42,982 nt of DNA from a virus, in IMG/VR virus record IMGVR_UViG_3300021090_000636, positions 1 through 42,982 of that record; one strand, 5' to 3'. Shown here piece after piece: positions 5,222 to 33,044 of the stretch (within the stretch, counting starts at the first letter, position 1; each line of letters opens with the position of its first letter). The position numbers and the translations under genes were made by a program. Under the pieces are notes generated by a model. That model worked only from the letters and a program-made list of their open reading frames with translations. It made no database searches and was not told the DNA's origin.

Positions 5222-5248
5222 TATAATACTCCTAATTAGGAGTATTAT
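5222..5248 (+). promoter_or_regulatory. 26-bp perfect palindrome overlapping a TATAAT box
   Basis: Positions 5223-5248 are a perfect inverted repeat with half-site ATAATACTCCTAA. A TATAAT at 5222-5227 overlaps its left arm. The next gene begins 44 bp downstream. This is the arrangement of a repressor operator on a -10 element. No strong -35 box is seen. Confidence 0.6.
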
Positions 5249-7606: not shown

Positions 7607-7654
7607 CCCCCAGCCGCGCGGGGATGAGCGCGGCACAATCTGAAAAATAAGGAG
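7607..7654 (+). repeat. Duplicated leader, copy 1
   Basis: This roughly 48-bp leader matches 8045-8094. It contains the hairpin CCGCGC/GCGCGG, then CACAATCTGAAAAATAAGGAGA, where AAGGAG is the RBS of the next gene. The shared block suggests duplication together with the gene's control region. Confidence 0.7.
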
Positions 7655-7660
7655 ACTGAA

Positions 7661-8044: not shown

Positions 8045-8094
8045 GCCCCCATGCCGCGCGGGGTGGAGCGCGGTACAATCTGAAAAACAAGGAG
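8045..8094 (+). repeat. Duplicated leader, copy 2
   Basis: This is the second copy of the hairpin-plus-RBS leader at 7607-7654. It has the same CCGCGC/GCGCGG stem and ACAATCTGAAAAA-CAAGGAGA. Confidence 0.7.
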
Positions 8095-8102
8095 AAAATA
8101 TC

Positions 8103-8384
8103 ATGAGGGTAGCGGTGCAAATATCAAGCGGAACAGACGAACACGATACGATTGTTCGCAAATCCGGCGATGGCGCCGGAATATCTATCATTCGCGGGGT
8201 GCTAAAAGAGTCCATCCTGGCGCAGGAGTGGGGATGGGAATGGACTGGTCACGGCGGGCGGGACCAGTGGGGTTCCGCTGTCTGGGTCGGTCAGGTCGCT
8301 GAAGTCAGCGAAGAAATTTTCTTCGCCTGGGCGGATAAAAATCTCCCGAAATTTCTACAGGAGGAAATTCGGGGTCTGCCGTAA
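8103..8384 (+). CDS. Hypothetical protein
   Basis: This is a 93-residue acidic protein rich in tryptophan, glycine and glutamate. It has an RBS in the duplicated leader. It is the last gene of the early block. No family is recognised. Confidence 0.55.
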   Translation: MRVAVQISSGTDEHDTIVRKSGDGAGISIIRGVLKESILAQEWGWEWTGHGGRDQWGSAVWVGQVAEVSEEIFFAWADKNLPKFLQEEIRGLP

Positions 8385-8444
8385 AAGGCATTCTGCCAGC
8401 CCGCGCTGAACATCTAAGGGCTGAACGATTGATGACCTTCAGGT

Positions 8445-8673
8445 TGCAGGAATGGCAGGGCAATGCTATGATTTTGATGGCGGGTCGATGGTGATGGGTT
8501 ATCCCTCTAAGATACTCCCCACACCAATTTTTATCCGCCCCAACCATGATTAAACTTGGGGCAAATGCGCCCCGGCAGGCATGTCCTGCACGGTAAAGTT
8601 TAGCGGTGCGTCCCGTTTGAAGACGGATACGGCGCGTAAGTCGAGCGAGGGACACGAGAAATCGTGTCCTTTT
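8445..8673 (+). ncRNA. Candidate noncoding RNA of about 190 nt
   Basis: A promoter (TTGCAG, 17-bp spacer, TATGAT, with an extended TGC before the -10 box) lies around 8445-8473. It would start RNA near 8480. The transcript holds GGGGC/GCCCC and GCAGG/CCTGC hairpins and a CGT/ACG hairpin. It ends at a very strong terminator, GGACACGA-GAAA-TCGTGTCC then TTTT (8650-8673). No start codon with a good RBS and a credible frame is seen. The RNA family is not recognised. Confidence 0.5.
8650..8673 (+). terminator. Intrinsic terminator with GAAA tetraloop
   Basis: A perfect 8-bp stem (GGACACGA with TCGTGTCC) is closed by GAAA and followed by TTTT. It separates the early block from the packaging genes. 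Confidence 0.8.
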
Positions 8674-8725
8674 GCGTTCACCGGTGGGGTGTTTAAATTT
8701 TATATCGGCAGATGGCGAATAAATG

Positions 8726-8734
8726 TGCTATGAT
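8726..8734 (+). promoter_or_regulatory. Extended -10 promoter before the packaging genes
   Basis: TGCTATGATTT matches the -10 region of the RNA promoter at 8465 (TGCTATGATTT). No clear -35 box is found. It would give a leader of about 40 nt before ATG 8780. Confidence 0.4.
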
Positions 8735-8779
8735 TTGAGGGGGATAACAACTGTAAAACAATGCGGGAACAATCAATTA

Positions 8780-9151
8780 ATGCGGGATATGGAACTGACA
8801 TGGTATGAGCGGGCGGTGTTGAAGACGCTCCGCGAGTTGTATCAGTTTAGTCGCAACTTTATACATACGCGCATCGTCGCTGACTGCCTCGATAAAAATG
8901 ACCGCATCATTCGCGGGGTGTTAGTACGGCTGGAGCAGAAGCAGGCGGTGCTGCGTAAAGGGCAGCGCGGCGGCTGGAAGCCTCTGGATGCGCGAGCAAT
9001 GCTGCCTGCTGCGCCCTCGCCTGCCAAAATCATTTTTGCTGCACCGGAATTCCAGTGCTGGCAACCTCGTCCGCCAACTCCGAAGCAACCGCCAAACCCT
9101 ATTATGCTGACGGAGTATCTGTCAGACCCCACGTTGCAGGCGGTGATTTGA
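8780..9151 (+). CDS. Small winged-helix-like protein upstream of terminase
   Basis: This is a 123-residue protein. Residues 1-75 fit a winged helix (WYERAVLKTLRELYQFSRNF, then VRLEQKQAVLRKGQRGGWKP). The rest is proline-rich. An in-frame start at 8723 falls on the likely promoter, so 8780 (or 8789) is preferred. It may be a regulator of the late genes or part of the packaging apparatus. The stop overlaps the next start. Confidence 0.55.
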   Translation: MRDMELTWYERAVLKTLRELYQFSRNFIHTRIVADCLDKNDRIIRGVLVRLEQKQAVLRKGQRGGWKPLDARAMLPAAPSPAKIIFAAPEFQCWQPRPPTPKQPPNPIMLTEYLSDPTLQAVI

Positions 9152-11269: not shown

Positions 11270-11336
11270 ATTATGTTCGGAAATATGCAAGGTTATCGGA
11301 GGGTTGTCCGATACTTGCCGGGGCGACGGCTATGCT
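11270..11336. promoter_or_regulatory. Divergent late promoter (copy A)
   Basis: TCCGATA (11307-11313) is followed 17 bp later by TATGCT (11331-11336), pointing at the portal gene. A mirror copy TATCGGA (11294-11300) lies 6 bp away. On the minus strand it is followed after 18 bp by CATAAT (11275-11270), pointing at the exported protein gene. One activator site or one shared sigma-factor type could thus serve both strands. Confidence 0.65.
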
Positions 11337-11371
11337 GTGGCGTAGATGGTTACTGATTCGGGATGGGTTCT

Positions 11372-12874
11372 ATGGCAAGCACTTTAGCGCTGCTGCAACT
11401 GGTTAAGCCGCTGGTGCAGGATAAGGTTGCCTGGTATACGTGGCAGCGGGAACAGACGGAGCGTGCCAATAAGGTTGCACTCTGCCGGGACTATGCTGAC
11501 GGGGAGCATCGCGCCAGCCTGACTGAAGAAATGCGCAATATGCTCCGGGTCAAGACGGCGGAACTGGGCAGCCCGTTCAACCTGAATCATATGGACAATA
11601 TTATCCAGAGCGTGATTGACCGGCTGGAATTGACTGCCATCGAAGCCGATAAGCCTGAAGCGACAACGTGGTTTCAGGATAAGCTCACCGACAATCGGAT
11701 AGACGGGCTGCAACTGGATGTGCATGAGGCGGCGCTACGGGATGCGGACAGCTATATCATGGTCAGCTTTGATAATGAAACCGGGGATGTTGTATTGACG
11801 CAGGAGGATGCATTTGATGGCACCTGCGGCATTATCATGGTGTATGGTCCCGATAAGCGCACCCCGCTGCTGGCGCTGAAGCTCTGGCAGGAAGCGAAGC
11901 CAGCACCCAAACGCGCCGCGCAATTTATCACGCGGGTGAATGCGTACTATCCAGACCGGGTGGAGAAATACCAGTCCGGCGAACGCGGCGGTGCATTGAT
12001 GCGCATGGAAGAAAACCCTGAGAAAGAAGGCAAATGGGTGATGCCTGACGGCACAGCGATTGGGATACCCATCATCCACTATCGCAACCGCAGCGCGAAA
12101 AACCGGCAGGGTGGCAAGAGCGAGATTAGTGATGTGATCCCGCTTCAGGATGCGCTTAATCGAACTATGGTCAGCATGGTCATGGCTGCCGAATTGACCG
12201 CGTTCCAGATTCGATATTCTATTGGTATGAAGCCCCCGGCGGCGCTGTCGCCGGGGATGTGGATAAACGCCTATGTCAAGGATGAGGCAGGTGAAACGAA
12301 GCCGCCCAGTGATGCACAGCAGAAATGGCTGGACAGCATTCGCTTTGGTACGCTGGCGCAGGGGGAACTGATACCGTTTCTGGAACAGGCTAAATTCAAA
12401 ATCGACCAGATGTATCTCATTACGCGCACGCCGAAGCCGGGGGACGCGGGCGATACATCGAGCGGCGAAGCGCTGAAGCAGCGTGAGATTGGGCTGGTGG
12501 GCAAGGCGAAACGCTGCCATGTCAATTTCGGGAATGCCTGGGAGAATGTGGCGCGGATCATGTGGCGGGTGCAGGCGGCGTATGGGACGGAGCAGCCGCC
12601 GGAATACAAAAAACTGTATGCGAAGTGGCGCAGCGCTGAACTGCGGGATGATGTGAAGGTCATCGACAACGCCAACAAGGTTGCCGAAAAGATTGACCAG
12701 AAGACGTACCTGAAACTGGTCGCGCCGGTGTTTGGCTGGGACGATGATGCGATTGATAAAATTATCGATGCGCTGCGGGGTGATTCGGGCGCAAGGATGG
12801 CGGCGCTGGCGGGGAACATTCCGGCGTTCGGTGGCGGGGTGCTGAACGGCATACCTGTGGGATCGGCGGCGTGA
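11372..12874 (+). CDS. Portal protein (SPP1 gp6-like)
   Basis: This is a 500-residue protein. Length, position after terminase and internal sequence (SPFNLNHMDNIIQSVIDRL, PIIHYRNRSAK, SSGEALKQREIGLVGKAKR) match the SPP1-type phage portal family. These form the dodecameric ring through which DNA enters the head. ATG 11372 is preferred to ATG 11363 because it keeps the 41-45-bp distance from the -10 box shared by the other late genes. The stop overlaps the next start. Confidence 0.88.
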   Translation: MASTLALLQLVKPLVQDKVAWYTWQREQTERANKVALCRDYADGEHRASLTEEMRNMLRVKTAELGSPFNLNHMDNIIQSVIDRLELTAIEADKPEATTWFQDKLTDNRIDGLQLDVHEAALRDADSYIMVSFDNETGDVVLTQEDAFDGTCGIIMVYGPDKRTPLLALKLWQEAKPAPKRAAQFITRVNAYYPDRVEKYQSGERGGALMRMEENPEKEGKWVMPDGTAIGIPIIHYRNRSAKNRQGGKSEISDVIPLQDALNRTMVSMVMAAELTAFQIRYSIGMKPPAALSPGMWINAYVKDEAGETKPPSDAQQKWLDSIRFGTLAQGELIPFLEQAKFKIDQMYLITRTPKPGDAGDTSSGEALKQREIGLVGKAKRCHVNFGNAWENVARIMWRVQAAYGTEQPPEYKKLYAKWRSAELRDDVKVIDNANKVAEKIDQKTYLKLVAPVFGWDDDAIDKIIDALRGDSGARMAALAGNIPAFGGGVLNGIPVGSAA

Positions 12875-13020
12875 TGATGAAAACACAAAAACCGAATCTG
12901 CCTTACGGCACGCCTGCACTGACTGAAATTCTTGGCGATCTGCTGGACAGCCTTGTGCGGATTGTCCCGCCGCCGAAGCCGAAACCGAAACCTGCGCCGA
13001 AGTCGGATGGACTGAGATAA
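12874..13020 (+). CDS. Small proline/lysine-tailed protein
   Basis: This is a 48-residue protein whose ATG overlaps the portal stop (TGATG). A helix (ALTEILGDLLDSLVRIV) is followed by a repetitive PPPKPKPKPAPK tail. It is too short to assign. Coupling to the portal suggests a real gene. Confidence 0.5.
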   Translation: MMKTQKPNLPYGTPALTEILGDLLDSLVRIVPPPKPKPKPAPKSDGLR

Positions 13021-13040
13021 GGCACATTATGCCAGCCCGC

Positions 13041-13064
13041 CCCCTCTCCAACGAGGGGCTTTTG
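13041..13064 (+). terminator. Terminator-like palindrome
   Basis: CCCCTC and GAGGGG form a hairpin followed by CTTTT. A degenerate TTTCTGCCAG-type repeat (ATTATGCCAG, 13026-13035) lies before it. The late promoter copy B begins 6 bp after it. Confidence 0.55.
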
Positions 13065-13069
13065 ATTTG

Positions 13070-13099
13070 TCCGATAGAGGCAGGCGGCGGGGCTATGCT
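13070..13099 (+). promoter_or_regulatory. Late promoter, copy B
   Basis: TCCGATA (13070-13076), a 17-bp spacer and TATGCT (13094-13099) lie 45 bp (from the -10 box) before the decoration gene. The spacer ends in GGGGC, and GGCTATGCTGTGG is shared with copy A. Confidence 0.65.
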
Positions 13100-13138
13100 G
13101 TGGGCAGCGAATTTTATGGCATAGCCGGAGAAAATCTT

Positions 13139-13573
13139 ATGGCAGTTATCAGTCTTCCCACGAGCGTTACGCCCGGAGCCGACGCGAATATCCGCCAGGG
13201 TACGTCGGGCGCTGCGCTTCAGGCAGGTGAAGTTCTTTATCTGAATTCGGTGACAGGGCGGCTGGAAGTGGCTGATGCTGATGGAGCCGCTGCAACCGCC
13301 GAGGTGGTAGGGATCGCGCTGAACAGCGCACCGGCAGCCGGACAGCCGGTGGACTATATCACTGATGGCACGCTGAACGGCGCGACGCTGCTGAAATCCG
13401 GGCAAGTTTATATCCTGTCGAATACGCCGGGTGATGTGTCGGAGTTGGTTACAATCGCAATACCGGACACAACGGAAGATGTTTCGTATGTCACGGGCAT
13501 TGGTATCGGGCTGTCAACCACGTCGATGAAGATCAAGATCAACGCCAGCGGCGTGCGGATGAACCTGGCTTAA
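13139..13573 (+). CDS. Capsid decoration-like protein (DUF2190-type), copy 1
   Basis: This is a 144-residue beta-rich protein without cysteines. The pattern GEVLYLNSVTGRLEVADADG...VVGIALNSAPAAGQPV is that of small DUF2190-type head decoration or stabilisation proteins. It is similar to the protein at 15649-16065, so the genome has two paralogs around the scaffold gene. The start follows GGAGAAAATCTT. An in-frame start at 13067 would lie in the promoter. Confidence 0.65.
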   Translation: MAVISLPTSVTPGADANIRQGTSGAALQAGEVLYLNSVTGRLEVADADGAAATAEVVGIALNSAPAAGQPVDYITDGTLNGATLLKSGQVYILSNTPGDVSELVTIAIPDTTEDVSYVTGIGIGLSTTSMKIKINASGVRMNLA

Positions 13574-13594
13574 AGCCATCTCGTTTGATTATTC

Positions 13595-13620
13595 GGGCGG
13601 GTCTGAGACCCGCCCCTACA
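13595..13620. repeat. GGGC...GCCCCTACA palindromic repeat
   Basis: The arms GGGCGGGTC and GACCCGCCC surround TGA and are followed by CTACA, 16 bp before the next start codon. Confidence 0.85.
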
Positions 13621-13635
13621 AAATCGGAGATTGAT

Positions 13636-13782
13636 ATGCGGGCGTTGTTACGGCTGGCGTACCTGAAAAGTCTGATGGATGCACGCAGTCGGTGGTTTGC
13701 CGGGATGCCTGCAATGCTGGCTCATTTTGATTTGCTGCGCCGGATAGTCCCGCTGTCCATGATCACGAAATTTCTGCTGTGA
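13636..13782 (+). CDS. Small basic hypothetical protein
   Basis: This is a 48-residue protein, basic at its N-terminus (MRALLRLAYLKSLMDARSR) and with a hydrophobic end. It is preceded by CGGAGATTGAT, a fair RBS. Its stop overlaps the GTG start of the minor head gene. Similar tiny genes occur between head genes, but no family is recognised. Confidence 0.45.
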   Translation: MRALLRLAYLKSLMDARSRWFAGMPAMLAHFDLLRRIVPLSMITKFLL

Positions 13783-14819
13783 ACCCCTCTCTACCCTCGC
13801 GCACCGAAACTGTATACGACCTCGTTACGAACCTGCTGGATAAGGGCTACACGGACACGGCGGGCGCGACGATGAATGCTATCACGGCAAACAGCAGCAA
13901 GGGTATCGTCGCCCAGCGCCTGAAAGAACTGGACGCTGAAGCTGCCCGGCTGAATGAGAATCAGCAGAAGCTGTCGCCAGATAATCCGGTGATGCGGGCA
14001 ACGCTGGCGGACTTCGATACTATCCTGCGGCAGAACTCCAAACTTATCAAAGAGACTGCGCCTGATTTGCAACGGGTTGGCTCAACGGCAGCCGCGACGT
14101 TGACCCGTGAACTGGCTGTGCCGGGGGTGACAGATGCGGAACTGGCGCGATTCGGGGTGGCATGGAACACGCCTGACCCGGAAGCGGTCAACGCGCTCGT
14201 CGGCTATGCCACGTCGCCGGAGTGGAATGCAGCGCTGGATAAGTATCAGAAGGACTCAGGCACTGCGGTTCTGGATGTGGCTATCCGGGGCTTCGTGAAC
14301 GGGTTAAATCCCAGGTCGAGTGCGCGGGCGATACGGGAATCAGCGGAGAGCATTCCGGTGTATCAGGCGAATACGCTGATGCGGACGCTGCACCTGCAAT
14401 CCTACCGGGATGCGACGAGTTTCAACCAGCAGGCGAACGCTGATATTTTAGAGGGTCAGGTGCGGATTGGCGTGCTGGATGGGCGTATCTGCCTGGCGTG
14501 TTTGGCGCTGCATGGCACACTGCTGCCGGTGGGTCAGCGTATTACGGACCACCATAACGGGCGGTGTACGGCGGTGAGTATCGTCAAGGGGCGCAGGCGG
14601 GATATTGTCACGGGGGAACAATGGTTTGGCGGGCTGACGATTGACCAGCAGCGGCTGCTGGCAGGTCCTGCGAATTATGAGGCGCTGCGCCAGGGCAAAG
14701 TGAAATTGAATGACTTCGTAGACCCCTATGAAGACCCTGTTTTCAAAGAGATGATGCGCGAGGCAAGCCTCAAGAAAATCCTCGGTGATGGTGCAGCGGA
14801 ATTCTATACAAAGCGGTGA
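13779..14819 (+). CDS. Minor head protein (SPP1 gp7 / Mu gpF-like)
   Basis: This is a 346-residue protein. The C-terminal half has the head-morphogenesis signature: VLDGRICLACLALHGT with a CxxC pair, then DHHNGRCTAVSIV with further His/Cys, a likely metal site. In SPP1 and Mu the related proteins sit inside the head near the portal and help DNA delivery. It starts with GTG overlapping the previous stop. Order portal, minor head, scaffold and capsid is the usual one. Confidence 0.8.
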   Translation: MNPSLPSRTETVYDLVTNLLDKGYTDTAGATMNAITANSSKGIVAQRLKELDAEAARLNENQQKLSPDNPVMRATLADFDTILRQNSKLIKETAPDLQRVGSTAAATLTRELAVPGVTDAELARFGVAWNTPDPEAVNALVGYATSPEWNAALDKYQKDSGTAVLDVAIRGFVNGLNPRSSARAIRESAESIPVYQANTLMRTLHLQSYRDATSFNQQANADILEGQVRIGVLDGRICLACLALHGTLLPVGQRITDHHNGRCTAVSIVKGRRRDIVTGEQWFGGLTIDQQRLLAGPANYEALRQGKVKLNDFVDPYEDPVFKEMMREASLKKILGDGAAEFYTKR

Positions 14820-14822
14820 TTC

Positions 14823-14852
14823 TCCGATAGCACCTGCGCCGCTACGTATGAT
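14823..14852 (+). promoter_or_regulatory. Late promoter, copy C
   Basis: TCCGATA (14823-14829), a 17-bp spacer and TATGAT (14847-14852) lie 42 bp before the scaffold start. It begins only 4 bp after the minor head stop. Confidence 0.65.
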
Positions 14853-14888
14853 GAGTGCAAATTCATTTACGTATTAGGGGGAGGCTTG

Positions 14889-15566
14889 ATGCCAACCGAT
14901 ACCCTGTCGCCTGATGCGACCCAATTAAAACACCGAGTCAGAACCGCCAGCCGGAGCAACACCGGGATTTCGCTGCTGATGCGGCGTGCCTGGTTTGCCG
15001 AGGGCGATCCGGCTCCGGGCGCGAACCCGCAGCAGCCACCCCCCGTAGGAACGGCTCCTCCGCCCGGTGGACAAACACCACCAGCGCCGCCAGTATTGCC
15101 GTCACAGATTGACGACAGTACCGACCTTTCGCAGCTTCCCCCGCCGGTGCAGGCATACATCAAATCCCTGCGGACGGAAAACAAGTCCCGCCGTGAGGCG
15201 CTGCAAGCAGCCGAGGACGCAAAGGCGACTGCGGAAACGAAGCGGCTCACCGAGCAGGGCGAATGGAAGACACTGGCGGAACAACGGGCGACAGAACTTG
15301 AGTCGCTCAAGATGCAGAAGACACGGGCTGATGCGCTCGAAGGGCAGATTAAAGCCATGAACGAGACGCGCATCAAGCAGGTTCCTGAAGCCATGCGCAC
15401 CATGATTCCGACAGACTATACGCCGGAAAAATTGAGCGGCTGGCTGGATGCTAATCTGCATCTGCTGACGAAAACGCCTGCGCCCAACCTCGATGGTGGG
15501 CAGCGTGGGGAGCGCGGGAAGACCCCGCCGGACCCAACGAAAACGCTGAAGAAAACAGCGTACTAA
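14889..15566 (+). CDS. Scaffolding protein
   Basis: This is a 225-residue protein. The N-terminus is proline/glycine-rich. A charged helix or coiled coil of alternating K/R and E from about residue 85 to 150 follows (SLRTENKSRREALQAAEDA). The tail is basic and flexible. This composition and position just before a decoration protein and the major capsid gene fit a phage scaffold, which shapes the prohead and then leaves. The RBS GGGGGAGG lies before ATG 14889. Confidence 0.75.
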   Translation: MPTDTLSPDATQLKHRVRTASRSNTGISLLMRRAWFAEGDPAPGANPQQPPPVGTAPPPGGQTPPAPPVLPSQIDDSTDLSQLPPPVQAYIKSLRTENKSRREALQAAEDAKATAETKRLTEQGEWKTLAEQRATELESLKMQKTRADALEGQIKAMNETRIKQVPEAMRTMIPTDYTPEKLSGWLDANLHLLTKTPAPNLDGGQRGERGKTPPDPTKTLKKTAY

Positions 15567-15570
15567 TGTA

Positions 15571-15635
15571 TCCCCACCCCCAGTCCCCCTCCCCATTTCA
15601 TGGAGAGGGGAGTAAAGCCGGGGGATTGGCAGAAA
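15571..15635. repeat. C-rich palindromic repeat plus TTTCTGCCAG repeat
   Basis: CCCCACCCCCAGTCC, then CCCTCCCC...GGAGAGGGG (15571-15610), is followed by TTGGCAGAAA (15626-15635), 13 bp before the next start codon. Read on the minus strand, the short repeat leads into the hairpin. Confidence 0.8.
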
Positions 15636-15648
15636 GGGATTTATCAAT

Positions 15649-16065
15649 ATGGCAACTATCGCAATCACAGCAGCGGACCGTATCTCGCTGCTTTTCAATG
15701 ACAAAGCAGAGACGTACAACGGCATCTGCGGCGTGGCAATCGCACGCGGGCAGGCAGTGTATTTTGCCTCAACGGGCAAGCTGGCACTGTCGAACGCGGG
15801 GGCAGCGGGTACTGCGAAGTTTGCGGGTATCGCGCTGGAAGCGGGTGGCATCGGGCAGGCAATCAGCATCCTGAAACGCGGGCATATCGGCGGGTTCACG
15901 CTGGCAGGTGCCTATCACAGCCTCGCGTATCTGAATGATACGGATGGCGTAATCGGGGACGCTGCCGGAACGGTGAGCGTCGTTATCGGTGCAGTCGTGC
16001 CATTGAGCGACGCTCCCAACTATACCAAAGCTCTGTACATCGACGCGCCCCACTGGGCAGCCTAA
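15649..16065 (+). CDS. Capsid decoration-like protein, copy 2
   Basis: This is a 138-residue beta-rich protein. GVAIARGQAVYFASTGKLAL and FAGIALEAGGIGQAISI align with the same elements in the protein at 13139-13573. It sits directly before the major capsid gene, the usual place of head decoration proteins. It probably trims or stabilises the mature shell. Confidence 0.7.
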   Translation: MATIAITAADRISLLFNDKAETYNGICGVAIARGQAVYFASTGKLALSNAGAAGTAKFAGIALEAGGIGQAISILKRGHIGGFTLAGAYHSLAYLNDTDGVIGDAAGTVSVVIGAVVPLSDAPNYTKALYIDAPHWAA

Positions 16066-16081
16066 CCGGGAGGATTAGCAA

Positions 16082-17155
16082 ATGGTAGGGATTTACGGAC
16101 TTCTCGGTTTGCAGGATGGTGATGATACCTTCATCAACACAGTGGGTCAGTCGATTGTGTATGAGGCGGCGGAAACGTACCTCCAGATGATTGACGACGA
16201 TATGATGAAAGCCTACGCGGTCTTTATCGAAATGGAGACCGAGGAATACAAAGAACGCTACAAGCTGCCCGGTGGCGGGCGTATGCAGGAACGCGGGCGG
16301 CAGGCAAGCAACGCGGCTGTGCGGAACTATGGCGGCTGGGATGTGGCGTTTCCGCTGAAAGATTTCGAAGAGCCGGTGGCGGAGAACGATGTTGATGTGG
16401 CGTATATGACCGTGCGCGATGTGCAGCTTGCATTGGACACGATTCAGATTCGTAATATCAACACCTGGCGTTATGAAATGCTGAAGCTGATGTTCAACAG
16501 TGCTGGCTACACCTTTGCTGATAAGTACAAGGGCAGCCTGAGCGTTGTGCCGCTGGCAAATGGGGACGCAGTGACCTATCCGCCGGTGATAGGGAGCGAA
16601 AGCGAAGCCACCGAAAACCACTATCTCGAATCGGGCTATGCTTCGTCAGCCATCAGCGACACGAACAATCCGTTCCCGGTGGTACGCAACGAACTGGAAG
16701 AACACACCGGCACACCAACCGGCTTCGGGAATGTTGCATCGTTCATCAATACCGCCCAGGTTGCAAAAGTTGAAGACCTGACTGACTTCGACCCGGTGGA
16801 AGATGTCAACGTGCGCAGCGGCGACCAGCGGGATGTCCCGATTAATTTGCCAATGGTGCCGGGACGCATCATCGGGCGGTGTAATGGAGTATGGGTGGTT
16901 GAATGGCGCTGGATTCCGGCAGACTATCAACTTAGCCTTGACCTCGATGCTCCGCAGCCGATTAAAGTCAGGCGCGATCCCGCCGCGACGGGTCTCCAGC
17001 GTGGGCTGCATCTGGCAGGTGACTCGAAGATTCACCCGCTGTACAGCCGCCACTATCGCAATCGTTTTGGCATGGGCGTGGGCAACCGGCTCAACGGCGT
17101 TGCATTGGAATTTGGGACGGGCGGCACTTATACAGTGCCTGCCGCTTTCGCATAA
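16082..17155 (+). CDS. Major capsid protein
   Basis: This is a 357-residue protein after a strong RBS (GGGAGGATTAGCAA). Length, position after scaffold and decoration genes, and the beta-rich, low-cysteine sequence fit an HK97-fold capsid subunit. No direct motif proves it. The C-terminal half (LPMVPGRIIGRCNGVWVVEW and the HPLYSRHYRNRFGMGVGNR region) resembles Mu-like or DUF2184-like capsid proteins. A strong hairpin follows the stop. Confidence 0.75.
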   Translation: MVGIYGLLGLQDGDDTFINTVGQSIVYEAAETYLQMIDDDMMKAYAVFIEMETEEYKERYKLPGGGRMQERGRQASNAAVRNYGGWDVAFPLKDFEEPVAENDVDVAYMTVRDVQLALDTIQIRNINTWRYEMLKLMFNSAGYTFADKYKGSLSVVPLANGDAVTYPPVIGSESEATENHYLESGYASSAISDTNNPFPVVRNELEEHTGTPTGFGNVASFINTAQVAKVEDLTDFDPVEDVNVRSGDQRDVPINLPMVPGRIIGRCNGVWVVEWRWIPADYQLSLDLDAPQPIKVRRDPAATGLQRGLHLAGDSKIHPLYSRHYRNRFGMGVGNRLNGVALEFGTGGTYTVPAAFA

Positions 17156-17160
17156 TCTGG

Positions 17161-17195
17161 TTTCTGTCAATCGCCGGGCGCAGGGAACTGCGCCC
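17161..17195 (+). terminator. Hairpin after the major capsid gene
   Basis: GGGCGCAG-GGAA-CTGCGCCC (17176-17195) is a perfect 8-bp stem with a 4-nt loop, 20 bp after the capsid stop. There is only a short T run, so it may be a partial terminator or mRNA end protector. TTTCTGTCAA (17161-17170), a variant of the short repeat, precedes it. Confidence 0.6.
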
Positions 17196-17222
17196 GTTCA
17201 ATATTTCACAATGAGGTGGATC

Positions 17223-17576
17223 ATGGCAAAAGCAAGCCGTGTGCAATCGAGAATGCAGCAGCAGTTGAACGACATCCAGCAGAAACTTGATTTCATAATC
17301 ACGCATATGCCCCTGCCCGGAACAGGTGATAATCCTTATCTTTCGCCTGAAGAGGCGGAGAAACTCGAAGCAACAATGAAGCCGAACAGCTTCGAAGGTG
17401 TGAAGACAGACGAGCCGCCTGGCGATGAAACCCCGGCGACACCTGCATCCGTTAAAGATGACCCTGTAGAACCTGAAGATGGCGGTGCAGAAGTGGTCAC
17501 TGATGATGACGGGTATGTGATATTCACAGACGAACCCGATGCTGAGAAGTCCACTGCTCGCCGCAAGAATAAATAG
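17223..17576 (+). CDS. Hypothetical protein, acidic tail
   Basis: This is a 117-residue protein. Residues 5-30 form a glutamine-rich helix (QSRMQQQLNDIQQKLDFII). The rest is acidic and proline-rich and ends in basic TARRKNK. The start is ATG 17223 after AATGAGGTGGATC. It lies between the capsid and connector genes. It may be a head protein or a short tail-fibre-like linker. Confidence 0.6.
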   Translation: MAKASRVQSRMQQQLNDIQQKLDFIITHMPLPGTGDNPYLSPEEAEKLEATMKPNSFEGVKTDEPPGDETPATPASVKDDPVEPEDGGAEVVTDDDGYVIFTDEPDAEKSTARRKNK

Positions 17577-17591
17577 TCGGGGGGGTATGTG

Positions 17592-17957
17592 ATGACTTTC
17601 ACCTATACGCCTTTCACCAGTGATGTTAGCCGGGTACGTTTTCATATCGACGATACGAATGCGGCTGCGCCAGTTTTCACGGATGAGATTATCACCGCCA
17701 TCATCACGGAGTATGGCACCTGGCAAAAGGCGGTCATTGCGTGCATCCGGCATATCATCGCCAAATTATCGTCTGTGCCAGATTTCACAGCCGACTGGCT
17801 GAAGGTGAGTACGGCATCGGCGATTGCTTCATATCGGAAGATGCTGGACGACAAAATGTCAGAACTGGACGTGTCGGATGGCAGCATCGAAGCGAGCGGT
17901 ATCCATGTTTACCGCTACGACAGCGACCAGCTTGTGCCGCCGGATTATCAACCATGA
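17592..17957 (+). CDS. Head-tail connector (gp15/adaptor-like)
   Basis: This is a 121-residue helical protein (MTFTYTPFTSDVSRVRFHID, PVFTDEIITAIITEYG). It has the size and opening pattern of phage adaptor proteins that bind below the portal. It is the first of five tightly spaced connector and tail genes. The stop overlaps the next start (ATGA). Confidence 0.65.
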   Translation: MTFTYTPFTSDVSRVRFHIDDTNAAAPVFTDEIITAIITEYGTWQKAVIACIRHIIAKLSSVPDFTADWLKVSTASAIASYRKMLDDKMSELDVSDGSIEASGIHVYRYDSDQLVPPDYQP

Positions 17958-18331
17958 CGATACTGCCTGAGTGGTTGCGGAACAAACTCATTGTCGCTGC
18001 GAAACAGTATATGAAAACAACCTGCACTATCGAGCAGGAAGTGGTTGTGACGGGTGAGTTCGCGCAGCCGGTGAAAAACTGGCAGGTGGTTGCCAGCAAT
18101 GCGCCGTGCCGGGTGATTACGGTGGGGTCAACGCGGGGAACGTCGGCAGTGAACGAGGCAGGCGCACAGGAAAATCTCCAGCAGGAATATCGGCTGGAGG
18201 TCACGGTGGACATAGCTCTGAGCGTCAATCAGCGGGTTATGGTTGACGGCGAGCAATACAACATCGTTCGTATTGAGAAGGCGCTGACGGATGAGTTGTT
18301 CCATCAGGCAATCATGACCCGGCGAGGGTAA
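17954..18331 (+). CDS. Head closure protein
   Basis: This is a 125-residue beta-rich protein (CTIEQEVVVTGEFAQPVKNW, YRLEVTVDIALSVNQRVMVDG). Size and beta pattern match small stopper or head-closure proteins such as SPP1 gp16, which plug the portal channel. It overlaps the adaptor gene by 4 nt. Confidence 0.6.
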   Translation: MTILPEWLRNKLIVAAKQYMKTTCTIEQEVVVTGEFAQPVKNWQVVASNAPCRVITVGSTRGTSAVNEAGAQENLQQEYRLEVTVDIALSVNQRVMVDGEQYNIVRIEKALTDELFHQAIMTRRG

Positions 18332-18333
18332 CG

Positions 18334-18750
18334 ATGGTCGCATGGATGAGCGCGACGACGGACACCAGCAAACTGCAAGCGCTGAAGAAGCGGCTGCCGG
18401 ATCGATTTGACGGGATGCTGCGGGGTGCCTCCGAGGAGATTGTCACTGATATTAAGTTGAGCTTTGGCACATCCCCGGCAGGCGCATCATACACACGCGG
18501 GACTGTCGTCCATGTCGCCAGCCAGCCTGGGTATCCGCCCAACATTGATATTGGGGCGCTGCTGGCAACTATACGATGGTTTAGAGACAGGCGCGGGCGC
18601 TTCATCATTACGGACGGGGTAATCTATGGGGCGCATCTGGAGATTGGCACGGAGCGTATGGCGGCGCGTCCGTGGATGACCCCGGTGTTCGAGCAGTGGC
18701 GTTCGCATAAATTTGCAGAGTACGCCCGCGACTATAATCTCTTAGGTTGA
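18334..18750 (+). CDS. HK97 gp10-like tail completion protein
   Basis: This is a 138-residue protein with a C-terminal YGAHLEIGTERMAARPWMTPVFE motif. That pattern (Y/P-x-x-E-x-G-T....RPF-x-x-P) is characteristic of HK97 gp10-like proteins. It begins 3 bp after the previous stop. Confidence 0.75.
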   Translation: MVAWMSATTDTSKLQALKKRLPDRFDGMLRGASEEIVTDIKLSFGTSPAGASYTRGTVVHVASQPGYPPNIDIGALLATIRWFRDRRGRFIITDGVIYGAHLEIGTERMAARPWMTPVFEQWRSHKFAEYARDYNLLG

Positions 18751-18753
18751 GCT

Positions 18754-19179
18754 ATGGCAGAACCTGCACGCGCTGCACTATACAGAGCCGTCAATCTGCG
18801 CTGCATTAACCAGGGCGGATGGGATGACCGCGTTTATGTCAGACGCGCTCCGGCGGGAGTCGTGCGACCCTACGTGGTTTTTCAGTGGCAGGGCGGCGGA
18901 GAGGCTAACCGGCTTGTCAAGCAGGATGCGACGATTGTGCTGCTGGTCAAAGCGGTATCGGATAATCTGGCGCTGGGGCTGATGCTGGCGGGGCAATTAT
19001 CCGAACTGCTGAATGATGCGGGTTATTTTGATGATGCGAGTGATTGTCTGGATGGCGGCGCGGCGTGGTGGATAAAGACGACCACGCAGGAGGGTGACAT
19101 CGACATTGATGAACTGGTCGATGGCGAGCCGGTCTATCATGAAGGTTTTCTGCTGCGTGTTCAAATGGAAAGGAAGTGA
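18754..19179 (+). CDS. Tail terminator-like protein
   Basis: This is a 141-residue protein starting 4 bp after the gp10-like gene. Elements such as VRPYVVFQWQGG, ATIVLLVKAVSD and LLNDAGYFDD with a final beta strand fit the DUF3168-like tail terminator family. Those proteins cap the tail tube at the head side. Confidence 0.6.
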   Translation: MAEPARAALYRAVNLRCINQGGWDDRVYVRRAPAGVVRPYVVFQWQGGGEANRLVKQDATIVLLVKAVSDNLALGLMLAGQLSELLNDAGYFDDASDCLDGGAAWWIKTTTQEGDIDIDELVDGEPVYHEGFLLRVQMERK

Positions 19180-19182
19180 GCT

Positions 19183-19596
19183 ATGCCAGCGTACAACGGC
19201 AATAACATTTATCTCAAAATCGGTAATTTTGAGGTGCAGGCAAAGTTTAAGAAGGTGTCATTAGAGCCGAGCATCGCAACTGTGGACACGACACGCGGAG
19301 CCGGAACCAATCATATGCAGCGTAATACCGGGCTGGAAGATACCAAGCTGGGCGTGACGCTTGGTTACGACACAGACATCATCCAGACACAACTGCGCTA
19401 TCTGAAGCCGGGGCGGTATCCTGTGATTTTCGGACCGGAGGGCGCTATCGCAGGTAAGCCAAGACACATACAGGATTTTATCCTGACGAGTTCGCCGCTG
19501 GAGATCAGCGTTGAAAAATCGGAAGTCGCGTTCGATATGAAGTTCGAGGCGGCTGATGCGCCATATGCGAATATGTTTGACGGCGCGACGTTTTAA
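19183..19596 (+). CDS. Major tail (tube) protein
   Basis: This is a 137-residue beta-rich protein (MPAYNGNNIYLKIGNFEVQ, TVDTTRGAGTNHMQRNTGLED). It is placed between the tail terminator and the chaperone genes, where siphophages encode the tube subunit that stacks in rings around the tape measure. Confidence 0.65.
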   Translation: MPAYNGNNIYLKIGNFEVQAKFKKVSLEPSIATVDTTRGAGTNHMQRNTGLEDTKLGVTLGYDTDIIQTQLRYLKPGRYPVIFGPEGAIAGKPRHIQDFILTSSPLEISVEKSEVAFDMKFEAADAPYANMFDGATF

Positions 19597-19624
19597 TCCG
19601 GCGTGAGATAACCGCCATTCTACC

Positions 19625-19664
19625 AAACCCCAACCCCAGCCCCCCCCCGAATTCAGGGAGGGGA
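19625..19664. repeat. C-rich palindromic repeat before the chaperone gene
   Basis: CCCCAACCCCAGCC is followed by CCCCCGAATTCAGGGAGGGG. Its purine arm (GGGAGGGGAG) lies 20-30 bp before the next start and adds purine-rich sequence near the RBS. Confidence 0.85.
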
Positions 19665-19683
19665 GCAAGAGACGAGGACAGCG

Positions 19684-20106
19684 ATGCCAACCAAAACGAA
19701 GCGGGCGGCGAAACAACTGCCGGTGGGCGAGCAGCCAGTAATTGACCTGTCGGAGATGACCTACGAGGAAGCGATGAACATGGCGATCCTCGAAGCGAAG
19801 ATTCAACGGCTGGGTATTTTGCAGGCGCGGCTTGCCAGCGGGGATGAAACTACGGCGGTGCTGGATGAACTGCTGATGTATTCCAGCCCGGCGATGATGG
19901 AAGAAGTTTTCAACTCGGTCCGTAACCAGATGGCGAAGGTGGTGCGCTCGCTGCCGGGAGACTGGTTTACGCCGGATACGCCGCCTAATTTGAGTCTGCG
20001 CGACGCGAACACGTATCGCTGGCTGCGGGCTGACCGGGCGAAACAGCTACGGACGCTCATCCAGCGGGCGCAGCAAGATGCCTCAAAAAACTCCGAGGGC
20101 GGTTGA
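19684..20106 (+). CDS. Tail assembly chaperone (gpG-like)
   Basis: This is a 140-residue helical protein between the tail tube and tape measure genes. It is expected to hold the tape measure protein in a usable state during tail assembly. A canonical slippery sequence lies just before its stop, so a longer fused form (about 201 residues) should also be made with the next reading frame, as in lambda gpG/gpGT. Confidence 0.75.
   Translation: MPTKTKRAAKQLPVGEQPVIDLSEMTYEEAMNMAILEAKIQRLGILQARLASGDETTAVLDELLMYSSPAMMEEVFNSVRNQMAKVVRSLPGDWFTPDTPPNLSLRDANTYRWLRADRAKQLRTLIQRAQQDASKNSEGG
20085..20091 (+). promoter_or_regulatory. Programmed -1 frameshift site
   Basis: The heptamer A-AAA-AAC is in the correct register: chaperone codons are TCA AAA AAC. 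A -1 slip enters the frame of 20091-20288 with no stop between. Confidence 0.75.
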
Positions 20107-20288
20107 TTAAGGCTGTCCTCTTTGATGAGCCGCTGGAGGACGTAGAGGTATGGCGAATCAACCGCGCACAGATGGCGCTGCTGCTGAAAAAAATCCCGGA
20201 GGAAGTTGACCGGATGCCCTACCTGGATTTTGCCGAGGTGCAGCAGGTGGCGGACGCAAATCATGAACTCAACAGGCGCATCCGGTAG
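20091..20288 (+). CDS. Tail chaperone extension (gpT-like), made by -1 frameshift
   Basis: These 65 residues are joined to the upstream chaperone by frameshift. The sequence (VLFDEPLEDVEVWRINRAQ, LLLKKIPEEVDRM) is probably helical. The only independent start would be TTG 20103 overlapping the upstream stop, which is weak. Expression as a fusion is more likely. In related phages the T part binds the tape measure. Confidence 0.7.
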   Translation, partial: LRGRLIKAVLFDEPLEDVEVWRINRAQMALLLKKIPEEVDRMPYLDFAEVQQVADANHELNRRIR

Positions 20289-20298
20289 TTACATCAAA

Positions 20299-20328
20299 TC
20301 CGATAGGGGGACGTGCGGGGCTTACACT
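20299..20328 (+). promoter_or_regulatory. Late promoter, copy D
   Basis: TCCGATA (20299-20305), a 17-bp spacer and TACACT (20323-20328) lie 42 bp before the tape measure start. The -10 hexamer is weaker than in copies A-C. Confidence 0.55.
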
Positions 20329-20364: not shown

Positions 20365-22563
20365 ATGAGCGCCATTGAAATTGCCAGTTTGTTTGCGGTG
20401 CTGGAGGCTGACGACAGGCTTTCTGACCAGCTTGATAAAGCTGAGGGAAAGGTCGTCGGGCTGGGCAAGCGCATCGACAGGATTGGTGAGCAGATGGTGG
20501 TGGCAGGCGGCAAGATTACGACGCTGACCGAGCCGCTGAAGAACGGGCTGGAATATGCCGTTGGCGCGGCGATGGACTTCGATAAGAGCATGACGAATGT
20601 CCAGGCGGTGCTTAACAAAACTGACGAAGAGATGGTGTCACTCAACGCGCAGGTGCTGGCGATGGGGACGGACAGCGTGGCAGGTCCACAGGCGGCAGCC
20701 GAAGCGTTTTACGATATTGTGGGTGGTGTCGCGGATGCATCAACCCACATGGCAATCCTCAAAGCTGCCATGAAGACTTCGACGGCGGGCGCGGCGAACC
20801 TCGGCAGTACGACCAAAGCCCTGATTTCGGTGATGAACTCCTACAAATTCAGCGCCGATAAAGCCAGTTACGCCAGCGACGTGCTGACCCGTACTGTCGG
20901 GATGGGTGTCGGCACAATGGACGAGTTCGCCAGTGCGCTGCCACAGGTGACAGGGCTGGCAAATTCCCTCGGCATTAGCTTCGAAGACCTTGGCTCAATG
21001 ACTGCCTATCTCACCACCCAGGGGAATACTGCCAGCCAGGCAACGACGCAGCTTGGCGCAATGATGGCATCCATGCTGAATCCCAACGCGACGATGATAG
21101 ACGCGCTGAAAGAACTGGGCTTCGAATCAGGTGAGGCGGCAATCAAACAACTCGGACTGGTTGGGGCATTCGAGGCGCTGGCAGGTACAAGCACTGTAGC
21201 CGAAAAGGGCATGGCGAAAGCTACGGGAAGTCTGGAAGCGCTGCGCGGTGTGACTTCTCTAGCCGGTGGGGATTTTCTGAAATTCGGCGAGAACTATAAG
21301 ACAGGTCTGGAGGGCGCGACGGATGCGGCTGAGAAAATCCAGCTTGAGAGCGTGGCGGCACAATTCGATTTATTGAAGTCCCAACTGGCGGGAACAGGCA
21401 TCGTTATCGGAGCGATTTTGCTGCCGATGCTAAACGAAGTTGTGCCTACCGTGAAGCCGATTATCGAGAAGATTGGCGAATGGGTGCAGGCGAACCCTGA
21501 ACTTAGCCGGACGATTCTCATGATTGCGGGCGGGCTGGTAGTGCTTGGTCCGATTCTCATGATTGCGGGTATGGCAGTCGGTCTCCTGTCAACGGCGATG
21601 GGTATCCTGCTTTCTCCGGCGGTGCTGCTGGCAGGTGCGATTGCGGCGATAGTTTTTGCTGCCCAGATGGGTTATCCGGGCGGGATTGCACAACTGCTAT
21701 CGGATGCTGCCACATCCGCGCAGCAGCTTGCCATCATGGGCTTCGCTTTTTTGAGCGCGTCGGCGGTGACTGTCAGGATGATGATTGATATTGTCGTTGC
21801 GGCTTTCGATGGTTTCATTGGAAAACTTCAGGATGCAAGGAAATTTATTGACGAACTGTTAGAGCAGAATCCTGCCCTCCTACAGGCGCTGTTTGTGGTG
21901 GCGATAGCTGCGGGTATTCTGGCTGCCACATACGGAATAATGCAAGTCAAAATTCTGGCGGTGACAGGTATAACCTGGGCGCTGGCGGCGGCAAAGAGTG
22001 CGCTGGCGTTTGCTGCATGGGCGGCTGCCGCCGGGGTGGGGGGGTTATCGGCGGCGATGGCCGCCGCTGTACTTCCCATCATTGCGGTAGCGGCTGCAAT
22101 CGGAGCAGCGCTGGTCGCACTTAAAGCATTTGAGGCAGGAGTCGCAGAAGGGAAAGCTACTGCTCAGGGATTTATTGCAACCGATCCCGGACAGAAGAAT
22201 CTCACCGAGGAGCAGCTATGGCAGCAGACGCTTAAATCGACGTTTGCGGAGCATGGGGAAAATCCCTTCTCCTACCTTCTGGCACAGTCCTTATACGCGG
22301 AACTGCTGCCGAGTTTGCAAAACGGGGCATCCAGAGATAGTGGCGGGAGCGGGATGGCGGGCGAGACTTACCTGATTGGCACAGGGGCGCAGCCGGAATT
22401 GTTTACTGCGCCAGCCAACGGCACGTTTACGGCGAATGCAGATAAAATGGTCGCTCCTCTCATCGGGCAAATGATCGTGTACGCGAATGATGCTGCCGGT
22501 GGGCGTGCCGCCGGTGAAGCTGCATGGGAACGCCTGGAGGAACTGGAACGGGCGCGGGGGTAA
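20365..22563 (+). CDS. Tail tape measure protein (TP901 type)
   Basis: This is a 732-residue protein that sets tail length and is ejected with DNA. The region 70-250 matches the TP901 core: AMDFDKSMTNVQAVL, AAEAFYDIVGGVADAST, TRTVGMGVGTMDEFASALPQ, TAYLTTQGNTASQATTQLG. Long hydrophobic stretches follow in the middle (about 340-430 and 500-600), as usual. The C-terminus (SGMAGETYLIGTGAQPELFTAPANGTF) has the family's phage-tail ending. The ATG 20365 start is placed 42 bp after the -10 box. Confidence 0.92.
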   Translation: MSAIEIASLFAVLEADDRLSDQLDKAEGKVVGLGKRIDRIGEQMVVAGGKITTLTEPLKNGLEYAVGAAMDFDKSMTNVQAVLNKTDEEMVSLNAQVLAMGTDSVAGPQAAAEAFYDIVGGVADASTHMAILKAAMKTSTAGAANLGSTTKALISVMNSYKFSADKASYASDVLTRTVGMGVGTMDEFASALPQVTGLANSLGISFEDLGSMTAYLTTQGNTASQATTQLGAMMASMLNPNATMIDALKELGFESGEAAIKQLGLVGAFEALAGTSTVAEKGMAKATGSLEALRGVTSLAGGDFLKFGENYKTGLEGATDAAEKIQLESVAAQFDLLKSQLAGTGIVIGAILLPMLNEVVPTVKPIIEKIGEWVQANPELSRTILMIAGGLVVLGPILMIAGMAVGLLSTAMGILLSPAVLLAGAIAAIVFAAQMGYPGGIAQLLSDAATSAQQLAIMGFAFLSASAVTVRMMIDIVVAAFDGFIGKLQDARKFIDELLEQNPALLQALFVVAIAAGILAATYGIMQVKILAVTGITWALAAAKSALAFAAWAAAAGVGGLSAAMAAAVLPIIAVAAAIGAALVALKAFEAGVAEGKATAQGFIATDPGQKNLTEEQLWQQTLKSTFAEHGENPFSYLLAQSLYAELLPSLQNGASRDSGGSGMAGETYLIGTGAQPELFTAPANGTFTANADKMVAPLIGQMIVYANDAAGGRAAGEAAWERLEELERARG

Positions 22564-30061: not shown

Positions 30062-31216
30062 TTAACCGAAGCTGACGTAGGTGGAGAGTGAGCGCTGGTG
30101 ATAGTTGGGTTTTTTGCCGACATAACGCATGGTCACGGCTGCGTCTTTGTGGCGCAGCAAATCTTGAATATCGCTGATAGGCATCCCGGCATCGTAGGCA
30201 ATGGCGGCGGCGGTGCGGCGGGTGTCATGCGCGGCGATACCGGCATGGCGGGCGATAATATCCCGGATGCCCTGGTGCGATACACCATGCGCGGGATTGT
30301 GCCGTCCGATTCTGAAATGGAATTTGTTGCGGTGCAGGGGCTGCCAAACCGGGACTGCCCCAATGATAAGCCGGGGGTCAACATCCCCACTTTTTCCCAC
30401 GCCAGCCCCCACTTCTCCGCCACGAAACCCCACCCCCGACCCCTCCCCGCAAGCAGGGAGGGGGGCGTATCCCCCCTCAGTCCCCCCGCTACGCAGGGGG
30501 AGGTTATAAGCCTCAACATATGCCATCAAATCGGCGTGGGCAGTGCAGGAAATCGGCACAGGGTCGGTGTTAGAGCGCTTGCCCCGGACGGTGAGCAGGT
30601 AGCTCTCGCCGTCGCCTGATGGTGTGATGCTGTCGAGACTGATGCGGGCGATTTCTGCCAGGCGCAGACCGGTGCTAAAGGCGATGTGCAGCAGGGCATA
30701 ATCGCGCATTCCGGCGATGGTGCTGCGGTCAATCTTTCGCAATACCGCGTTGACCTGATTAATGCTGAGACGGATGAATTCAGGTCTCCACAATGGGGCG
30801 ATATTGCTGGTGGTCTCCGGCTTCGGGGTGGGGAGCGCGGCTGCCTGGCGGATGGATTCGCGGCAGTCGGAAATGAAATCGCGTTCCGTGCCGGTGTAGC
30901 CGGGCAGGTGCTGGTCTGCCAGACGCTTGAGGTAATGACGGACCGGTGCCAGATATTTACTGGCGATGGTGGATGACTTCAACTGCTTCTGCACGAGATG
31001 GGCAACGAAGCGCCGGAGCATGTCGGGCGTGGGAAGCTCGTCCTGAATCCAGTCGAAAAAATATTCCATGCCTGCCCGGTAGACGCGGCTGGTATGCTTT
31101 TCCTCGGTACGTGACGACGGCAGCGCGGCGATATGGGCGGCGACGCTCGCCACCGCATCGCGCCGGTTGAAGTATTGCAGCCACAGGTTGCTTTGAGGTA
31201 TAGTGATAGCGTGCAT
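30062..31216 (-). CDS. Tyrosine recombinase 1
   Basis: This is a 384-residue protein. The catalytic set is seen: R185 (TGLRLAEIA), K213 (VRGKRS), H330-x-x-R333 (AHDTRRTAA), H356 (LLRHKD) and Y365 (MRYV). An N-terminal SAM-like core-binding domain lies at about 15-115. Between K213 and H330 there is an insert from two C-rich repeats (about residues 238-275), still in frame, enlarging a region that is normally short. The protein may still fold, but activity is uncertain. It is divergent from the second recombinase. Confidence 0.85.
   Translation of the reverse strand: MHAITIPQSNLWLQYFNRRDAVASVAAHIAALPSSRTEEKHTSRVYRAGMEYFFDWIQDELPTPDMLRRFVAHLVQKQLKSSTIASKYLAPVRHYLKRLADQHLPGYTGTERDFISDCRESIRQAAALPTPKPETTSNIAPLWRPEFIRLSINQVNAVLRKIDRSTIAGMRDYALLHIAFSTGLRLAEIARISLDSITPSGDGESYLLTVRGKRSNTDPVPISCTAHADLMAYVEAYNLPLRSGGTEGGYAPLPACGEGSGVGFRGGEVGAGVGKSGDVDPRLIIGAVPVWQPLHRNKFHFRIGRHNPAHGVSHQGIRDIIARHAGIAAHDTRRTAAAIAYDAGMPISDIQDLLRHKDAAVTMRYVGKKPNYHQRSLSTYVSFG
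30426..30503. repeat. Two C-rich repeats inside recombinase 1
   Basis: One copy of each sub-type, side by side: CCCCTCCCCGCAAGCAGGGAG and TCCCCCCGCTACGCAGGGGGA. The gene stays open. Confidence 0.85.
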
Positions 31217-31980: not shown

Positions 31981-32016
31981 GAGGGTGGTAATCAACAGAT
32001 TATCACCCTCTTTTTT
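31981..32016 (+). terminator. Intrinsic terminator
   Basis: GAGGGTGGTAATC-AACA-GATTATCACCCTC (one G-T pair) is followed by TTTTTT. It blocks rightward transcription into recombinase 2 and lies at that gene's 3' end. Confidence 0.8.
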
Positions 32017-32941
32017 ATTTCCCAATTGCACGAGGAAATTCAATCACGGGCTTCGCTTCCTGGGGAACCAGATCGGACGTGACCTGAAGTTTGTCGAGTT
32101 CCGCGAACGCTGATTCGTAATCGGTGGGGTAGTAATAATCCAGCGTGATTTGAACACTGTCATGTCCGAGCGCACGCGCTGCCAGAGTTGGCGCGACTTT
32201 CGCATCAGCGAATTGATGCCCCTTCCTGTGACGCAGGGTATGCCCGGACAGGGTACGGATGCCCAGACTGTGACACAGGCGACGAAGCTGGAGCGAGATG
32301 TTGTTCGCCTTCATGGGGAGCGCACCTTTGCTGAAGACATAGCGTCCCGCTGTGCGCGGACGTATCAGCAGCAGCCGCGTCAGGGCAGATGCACAGAGGT
32401 CGCCGTATTTGACCGGGCGCTGCTTATCCCCTTTTTCCGTAACGATGCCACGCCGCTTCTCTAAATCCAAATCCTCGACTTTCAGCCCGGCAGCGCCACC
32501 AATACGGCAGCCGGTATCCGCCAGAAAGAGAATCATGGCGTAATCACGGCAGCGGTAAAACATGGTTTTGTGCGGGTGATTGAGAACGTGATCGAGCAGC
32601 CGGGCGAGTTCGTCATCGCTCATGGCCTTATCACGGCTGACGTACATGCGCTGGCGTTTGCGCTTCATCTCGCTCGCCGGACTTTCGGGCAGCACCTTCA
32701 GCTTAACCATCCAGTTGAAAAGCGTTTTTATGGTTTTGACGTGTTTGTTGAATGAGGCAATAGCGTAATTTTTAGTGTCGAGATGCTGGTGGTATTCAAT
32801 CATATCGACGTGGGTAACAGCTTCGACTGGTCGCGCTGTCCCGATATATGCCAGCATCGCCTTGAGAACGTAGCGATACGACTCGCGGGTGGTGGGACGC
32901 TGATTTTTCAAAAAGAGTTCGACGGCTTTAGCAAGTTCCAT
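32015..32941 (-). CDS. int: Tyrosine recombinase 2 (integrase)
   Basis: This is a 308-residue protein of XerC/D-like size. A SAM-like core-binding domain lies at about 3-85. The catalytic set is R146 (TGCRIGGAA), K173 (GDKQRPVKY), H234-x-x-R237 (SGHTLRHRKG), H260 (ALGHDS) and Y270/Y271 (DYYYP). It has no repeat insertion. It lies directly beside the tRNA-derived attP, so it is the likely integrase. The start is set at 32941, where AGGGGGAATG precedes ATG. Confidence 0.9.
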   Translation of the reverse strand: MELAKAVELFLKNQRPTTRESYRYVLKAMLAYIGTARPVEAVTHVDMIEYHQHLDTKNYAIASFNKHVKTIKTLFNWMVKLKVLPESPASEMKRKRQRMYVSRDKAMSDDELARLLDHVLNHPHKTMFYRCRDYAMILFLADTGCRIGGAAGLKVEDLDLEKRRGIVTEKGDKQRPVKYGDLCASALTRLLLIRPRTAGRYVFSKGALPMKANNISLQLRRLCHSLGIRTLSGHTLRHRKGHQFADAKVAPTLAARALGHDSVQITLDYYYPTDYESAFAELDKLQVTSDLVPQEAKPVIEFPRAIGK

Positions 32942-32969
32942 GAGTACATTCCCCCTATCTGTATGAAAC

Positions 32970-32997
32970 ATACTACTACGATAAATTGAAACGTCAA
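32970..32997 (-). promoter_or_regulatory. Promoter of recombinase 2
   Basis: Read leftward: TTGACG (32997-32992), 16 bp, TAGTAT (32975-32970). The -35 box lies within the left arm of a large inverted repeat (32986-33044), which may thus control it. Confidence 0.6.
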
Positions 32998-33044
32998 AGA
33001 CGAGCAAGCAACGACTGCTCTACGCTCGTCAATTGACGCTGAAG
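32986..33044. repeat. Imperfect inverted repeat, about 20-bp arms
   Basis: The left arm TTGAAACGTCAAAGACGAGC and right arm (inverted) CTTCAGCGTCAATTGACGAGC surround an 18-bp spacer. It lies between recombinase 2 and the replication operon and could bind an excision or copy-control protein. Confidence 0.55.

Follow-up and report, generated by a model that had tools for sequence, protein, structure and literature searches.

The phage genome analyzed here, a complete IMG/VR virus record of 42,982 bases (IMGVR_UViG_3300021090_000636; hereafter the window), carries the pattern TCCGATA-N17-TAnnnT ahead of its portal, decoration, scaffold and tape measure genes. Judged from sequence, this pattern is very probably a genuine phage-specific late promoter, new in its letters and known in its kind. 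The account that best explains our observations overall, to which we assign a probability of roughly 70%, is that of a dispersed late promoter of the sigma70-like kind, with an activator box standing in place of the -35 element.

The window contains exactly four copies of the pattern, always on the plus strand. At site 1 (11307-11336), ahead of the portal gene, TCCGATA (11307-11313) is followed after 17 bp by TATGCT (11331-11336). The same heptamer and spacing precede TATGCT (13094-13099) at site 2 (13070-13099, ahead of the decoration gene), TATGAT (14847-14852) at site 3 (14823-14852, ahead of the scaffold gene) and TACACT (20323-20328) at site 4 (20299-20328, ahead of the tape measure gene). 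From the first base of each -10 box to the likely ATG (11372, 13139, 14889 and 20365), the distances are 41, 45, 42 and 42 bp, respectively. A preliminary description of this DNA had proposed four copies with identical 17-bp spacing and -10 boxes 41-45 bp before these four starts, and the exact scan and the measured distances agree with it on both counts. Its -10 consensus, TATGMT, holds at three of the sites and fails at site 4; TAnnnT fits all four. No copy with a single mismatch exists in the window, and the 19 copies with two mismatches are at chance level. A histogram of gaps between TCCGATA and TAnnnT contains four instances at 17 and a single one at 20, the rest of the range from 0 to 29 being empty. 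The remaining TCCGATA heptamers of the window lack TAnnnT at 17, and a weight-matrix search of the window yielded no extra sites above control level. As had also been proposed, the -35 position does not resemble TTGACA: none of the four sites appears in the output of a consensus promoter scan, with no TTGACA-like element 16-18 bp from the -10 box, and they are thus not canonical sigma70 promoters.

Conservation in related phages provides the strongest support for the element. Single-protein searches with the portal and terminase retrieved no relatives, whereas terminase alignments recovered approximately 40 contigs from IMG/VR and from Anaerolineae metagenome-assembled genomes (MAGs), at roughly 45-60% terminase identity; their head genes are mostly in the window order where the contigs cover them. 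Across 682 kb of these relatives, TCCGATA occurs 45 times (both strands), and in six instances TAnnnT follows at a gap of 17, against 0.25 expected (P ~3e-7); every other gap accounts for 0 or 1. All six sites are intergenic and lie 22-73 bp ahead of the next open reading frame. Four occupy places equivalent to sites in the window: ahead of the portal gene in contigs L150 and L155 (site 1), the decoration gene in L146 (site 2) and the scaffold gene in L209 (site 3). The others precede a 171-aa late gene in L209 and, in L154, a coiled-coil/membrane gene pair.

The Anaerolineae MAG contig L209 and the IMG/VR contig L234 represent the same stretch, and L150 shares 507 identical bases with L209; a single phage therefore carries at least three copies of the box, with TCCGTTA at L150:1774 a probable degenerate fourth. 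Between L150 and L155 the box and the -10 element are kept and the spacer has diverged. In all, we count ten exact copies, distributed over five or more phages. Within the zones upstream of the relatives' late genes, TCCGATA appears four times, each time with TAnnnT at 17 or 18. We also scanned about 55 records without reference to the motif, asking whether some hexamer recurs at one constant gap from TANNNT in three or more upstream zones. Only three had such a hexamer: the window, L150 combined with L234 (the same box) and L131 (a different motif). Broader searches of IMG/VR added little: the exact motif extended with GGCTATGCTG gave three matches, none near a homologue of a window gene, and an extended pattern derived from L150 and L155 matched only those two contigs.

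How might such an element operate? The spacing sets CCGATA exactly at the position of the -35 hexamer, the -10 box (mostly TAnnCTG) is sigma70-like and, as the preliminary description had anticipated, no sigma factor was found among the window proteins scanned. Given these features, the simplest mechanism is host polymerase acting together with a phage activator. Host RNA polymerase carrying the housekeeping sigma factor would read the -10 box, and a phage-encoded DNA-binding protein would read TCCGATA at -35 and recruit the polymerase after the early genes have been expressed. Each copy would then serve as its own late start, ahead of the portal, decoration, scaffold and tape measure genes. 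We infer from sequence features that late transcription begins at these sites and that the box is recognized by an activator and not by a sigma factor.

A candidate for this activator is encoded at 8723-9151 (+), directly upstream of the small terminase-like gene. The product is a small basic winged-helix protein (142 aa, pI 9.65; PF03444, E 6.9e-6), and its AlphaFold2 model is a winged helix with pLDDT above 90 over most of the domain. Homologues lie upstream of terminase genes in L135, L154 and L132, and another sits at the broken end of L210. Ahead of the L135 homologue itself lies a TCCGATA site that has an inverted half-site (9298), in the geometry of window site 1, where TATCGGA (11294-11300, minus strand) lies 6 bp upstream of the box. 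The search for homology to a known late-regulator family turned up a single Pfam entry, PF03444 (HrcA_DNA-bdg), and nothing among the PHROGs at E 0.01, a fold search of the PDB gave only generic winged-helix matches (none at E <0.001), and an alignment search for relatives failed because the protein is too diverged. The preliminary description had put forward three helix-turn-helix (HTH) proteins, at 6000, 7345 and 8780. The gene at 8723-9151 is the best placed of them; the protein at 6000 is excisionase-like (phrog_7506, E 1.8e-7), and for that at 7345 we found neither a family match nor relatives. We offer the 8723-9151 protein as a candidate only; that it is the activator is a guess, at clearly less than even odds. 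In L154, the corresponding gene (8103-8711) encodes a single 202-aa protein built of three tandem winged-helix-like repeats.

Several observations weigh against the overall account of an activator-driven late promoter. Among phages bearing the box, the candidate is present in the window, L135 and L154, and no homologue was found in L146, L150 or L155, all of which are incomplete contigs. The inverted half-site accompanies just two of the ten sites examined, so that dimer binding is not evident and no dyad recurs at a fixed place. L135 has a long late region, yet it contains only two variant copies of the element, one with a spacing of 18 before the scaffold gene and one with a spacing of 19 before the regulator gene that precedes terminase. 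Finally, TCCGATA is missing from these positions in most of the relatives that share the gene order. Among the outcomes that would count against a promoter, the preliminary description had named many equal matches inside genes and loss of the motif in relatives with conserved gene order, and these for the most part did not materialize. No equal matches were found inside genes; the motif is kept in some syntenic relatives and absent from most. Its statement that the copies lie only before structural genes applies to the window and not to the family as a whole, in view of the L154 gene pair and the L135 regulator gene.

A competing explanation is that TCCGATA acts as a genuine -35 element, read either by a phage sigma-like protein that escaped detection or by a host sigma factor whose -35 preference is altered by a phage protein. 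The exact placement of the box at -35, its fixed spacing and the lack of a dyad at most sites fit this idea, as does a 145-aa HTH protein encoded upstream of terminase in L150, which weakly matches sigma region 4 as well as other HTH families. However, these matches are generic and fall under Pfam cut-offs, and both the sigma70-like -10 box and the scan of window proteins for sigma domains argue the other way; we regard this explanation as unlikely. In a separate attempt, we considered a sigma28-like reading with GCCGATAA as the -10 element and dropped it, as two sites inspected by eye have no TAAA box at the right upstream distance.

Alternatively, a host transcription factor or minor host sigma factor could read the box, in which case the late genes would follow the state of the host. 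That one and the same box is present in several diverged phages, which have their nearest bacterial relatives among the Anaerolineae, is compatible with this. Three Anaerolineae MAGs (18 Mb in total), however, contain the pattern 8 times against 17 for a reversed control, a comparison that is not final, the host of the window not being identified. Of the eight matches, two come from C466, a contig that overlaps the L150 phage. Canonical TTGACA-N17-TATAAT, by comparison, is found 7 times in two of these MAGs against 0 for its control. The lack of excess indicates that TCCGATA-N17-TAnnnT is not a host promoter class in these genomes, and we consider a host reader decidedly improbable. Together with the recurrence of the element at the same gene boundaries in relatives, this result supports the phage-specific late promoter proposed in the preliminary description.

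We give still less credence to the idea that the sites are not promoters at all and instead represent repressor operators, packaging or recombination signals, or conserved leader elements. The inverted half-site at two of them is operator-like, but the constant 17 bp to TAnnnT, the narrow range of distances to the window start codons and the restriction to the coding strand are the properties of promoters. Least probable is chance, with four matches chosen post hoc among many upstream regions. When the whole window was shuffled with dinucleotide frequencies preserved, some 7-mer at a gap of 14-20 from TANNNT reached four copies in 11 of 300 shuffles, so the raw whole-window count alone is weak evidence. 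Confining the shuffles to the 110 bp upstream of 59 gene starts gave no instance of four in 2,000 (any 7-mer, gap 12-22); it is thus placement that makes the difference, and the six independent intergenic copies in relatives render a chance origin very unlikely.

The proposed arrangement of phage activator and dispersed late promoters has parallels in well-studied phages. Phage P2 has four late promoters with non-canonical -35 regions that depend on the phage activator Ogr, whose sites are dyads centered near -55. The window resembles P2 in the number of late promoters, the non-canonical -35 and the proposed phage activator; its box, however, lies at -35 and is not a dyad near -55. At T4 middle promoters, a MotA box near -30 replaces the -35 element of a sigma70 promoter, and AsiA is needed. 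T4 and, as proposed, the window have a phage box in place of -35, with MotA differing in position, sequence and its need for AsiA; no AsiA-like protein was found in the window. The late promoters of phage Mu (lys, I, P and mom) are dispersed, have non-consensus -35 and -10 elements and need the small phage activator C (PMC4461284). Like Mu, the window has several dispersed, probable late promoters in one phage, non-canonical at -35. It differs in the sequence of the box, in host phylum and in having a single 7-mer at -35 with no consistent dyad, and activator dependence is in our case proposed from sequence features. RinA and Ltr, late regulators of staphylococcal phages, are encoded upstream of terminase genes (PMC13123087). 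These small basic proteins of about 130 aa resemble the window candidate in size, charge and position, and no homology to them was found. In contrast to the four separate putative window promoters that share a box at -35, RinA and Ltr act on one promoter that yields a single late transcript, and the Ltr sites are repeats upstream of the promoter. In the literature we searched, no paper dealt specifically with late transcription in Anaerolineae phages, and none of the ten papers listed, out of 766, was relevant to TCCGATA as a promoter box.

The genes downstream of the four sites are assigned with differing certainty. The portal gene (11363-12874, +; PHROG 104, E 2.4e-41) may start at ATG 11363, which is in frame, or at ATG 11372, and the tail tape measure gene (20365-22563, +; PHROG 28, E 3e-54) at GTG 20359 or ATG 20365. 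The head scaffold gene (14889-15566, +) matches PHROG 233 (E 4e-5). The match of the decoration-like gene (13139-13573, +) to PHROG 49 is weak (E 0.0016), and homologues in relatives support the assignment. In the consensus scan, a terminator-like hairpin (13041-13058, +) ends directly before site 2.

The window ends in a 140-bp direct terminal repeat (5-144 and 42843-42982, 99% identical), so the genome map is probably complete and circular; the record itself is classed as linear. In terminase alignments, the only relatives from the genome collection above 40% were three Anaerolineae MAGs, and the host is therefore probably a member of the Anaerolineae (Chloroflexota). Two adjacent genes encode tyrosine recombinases, or integrases (30062-31216 and 32015-33007, -), and homologues of both lie near one another in the L144 record (L206). 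A C-rich element that ends in a hairpin (CCCCTCCCCGAATTCAGGGAGGGG-like) is scattered through the window in eight copies (15563, 19618, 22566, 26233, 30418, 36782, 39845 and 42089) and may be a small mobile repeat; L144 repeats a similar element (CCCCTCTCC...GGAGAGGGGA). Elsewhere, a 49-nt stretch comprising a hairpin-like sequence and a ribosome-binding site is duplicated at 88% identity (7607-7655 and 8047-8095), each copy preceding one of two neighboring early genes. A perfect 22-bp palindrome at 5225-5246 (AATACTCCTAATTAGGAGTATT) overlaps a TATAAT-like box ahead of the gene at 5292 and is a possible repressor operator.

Other members of this phage family appear to use a different late-promoter sequence. 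Among the relatives, TTGACA-N7-TANNNT is found 20 times, compared with approximately 3-4 at other gaps and a smaller peak at the canonical 17. In L015 the pattern (3730, 4198 and 9487) lies ahead of the decoration, scaffold and tape measure genes; L131 has it four times (458, 3195 and 7425 among the positions), and further sites are found at L129:5476, L138:4534 and L148:7955. The three Anaerolineae MAGs show no enrichment for it. By their sequences, phages that share a gene order thus seem to have different late-promoter codes. We tentatively suggest, as a scenario that is still doubtful, that this is one family (with Anaerolineae as hosts where these are known) that shares its late-gene order and uses different codes, the recognizer having been exchanged repeatedly, possibly with one recognizer among them that moves the -35 box by a single helical turn.

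A box of known sequence is a marker of late transcription units in uncultured phages, and TCCGATA can serve as bait for finding its activator. Our comparison further suggests, in a form that can be tested, that related phages have swapped late-promoter codes and kept their gene order. If this is true, the recognizer of late promoters would have been exchanged repeatedly while the genes under its control stayed in place.
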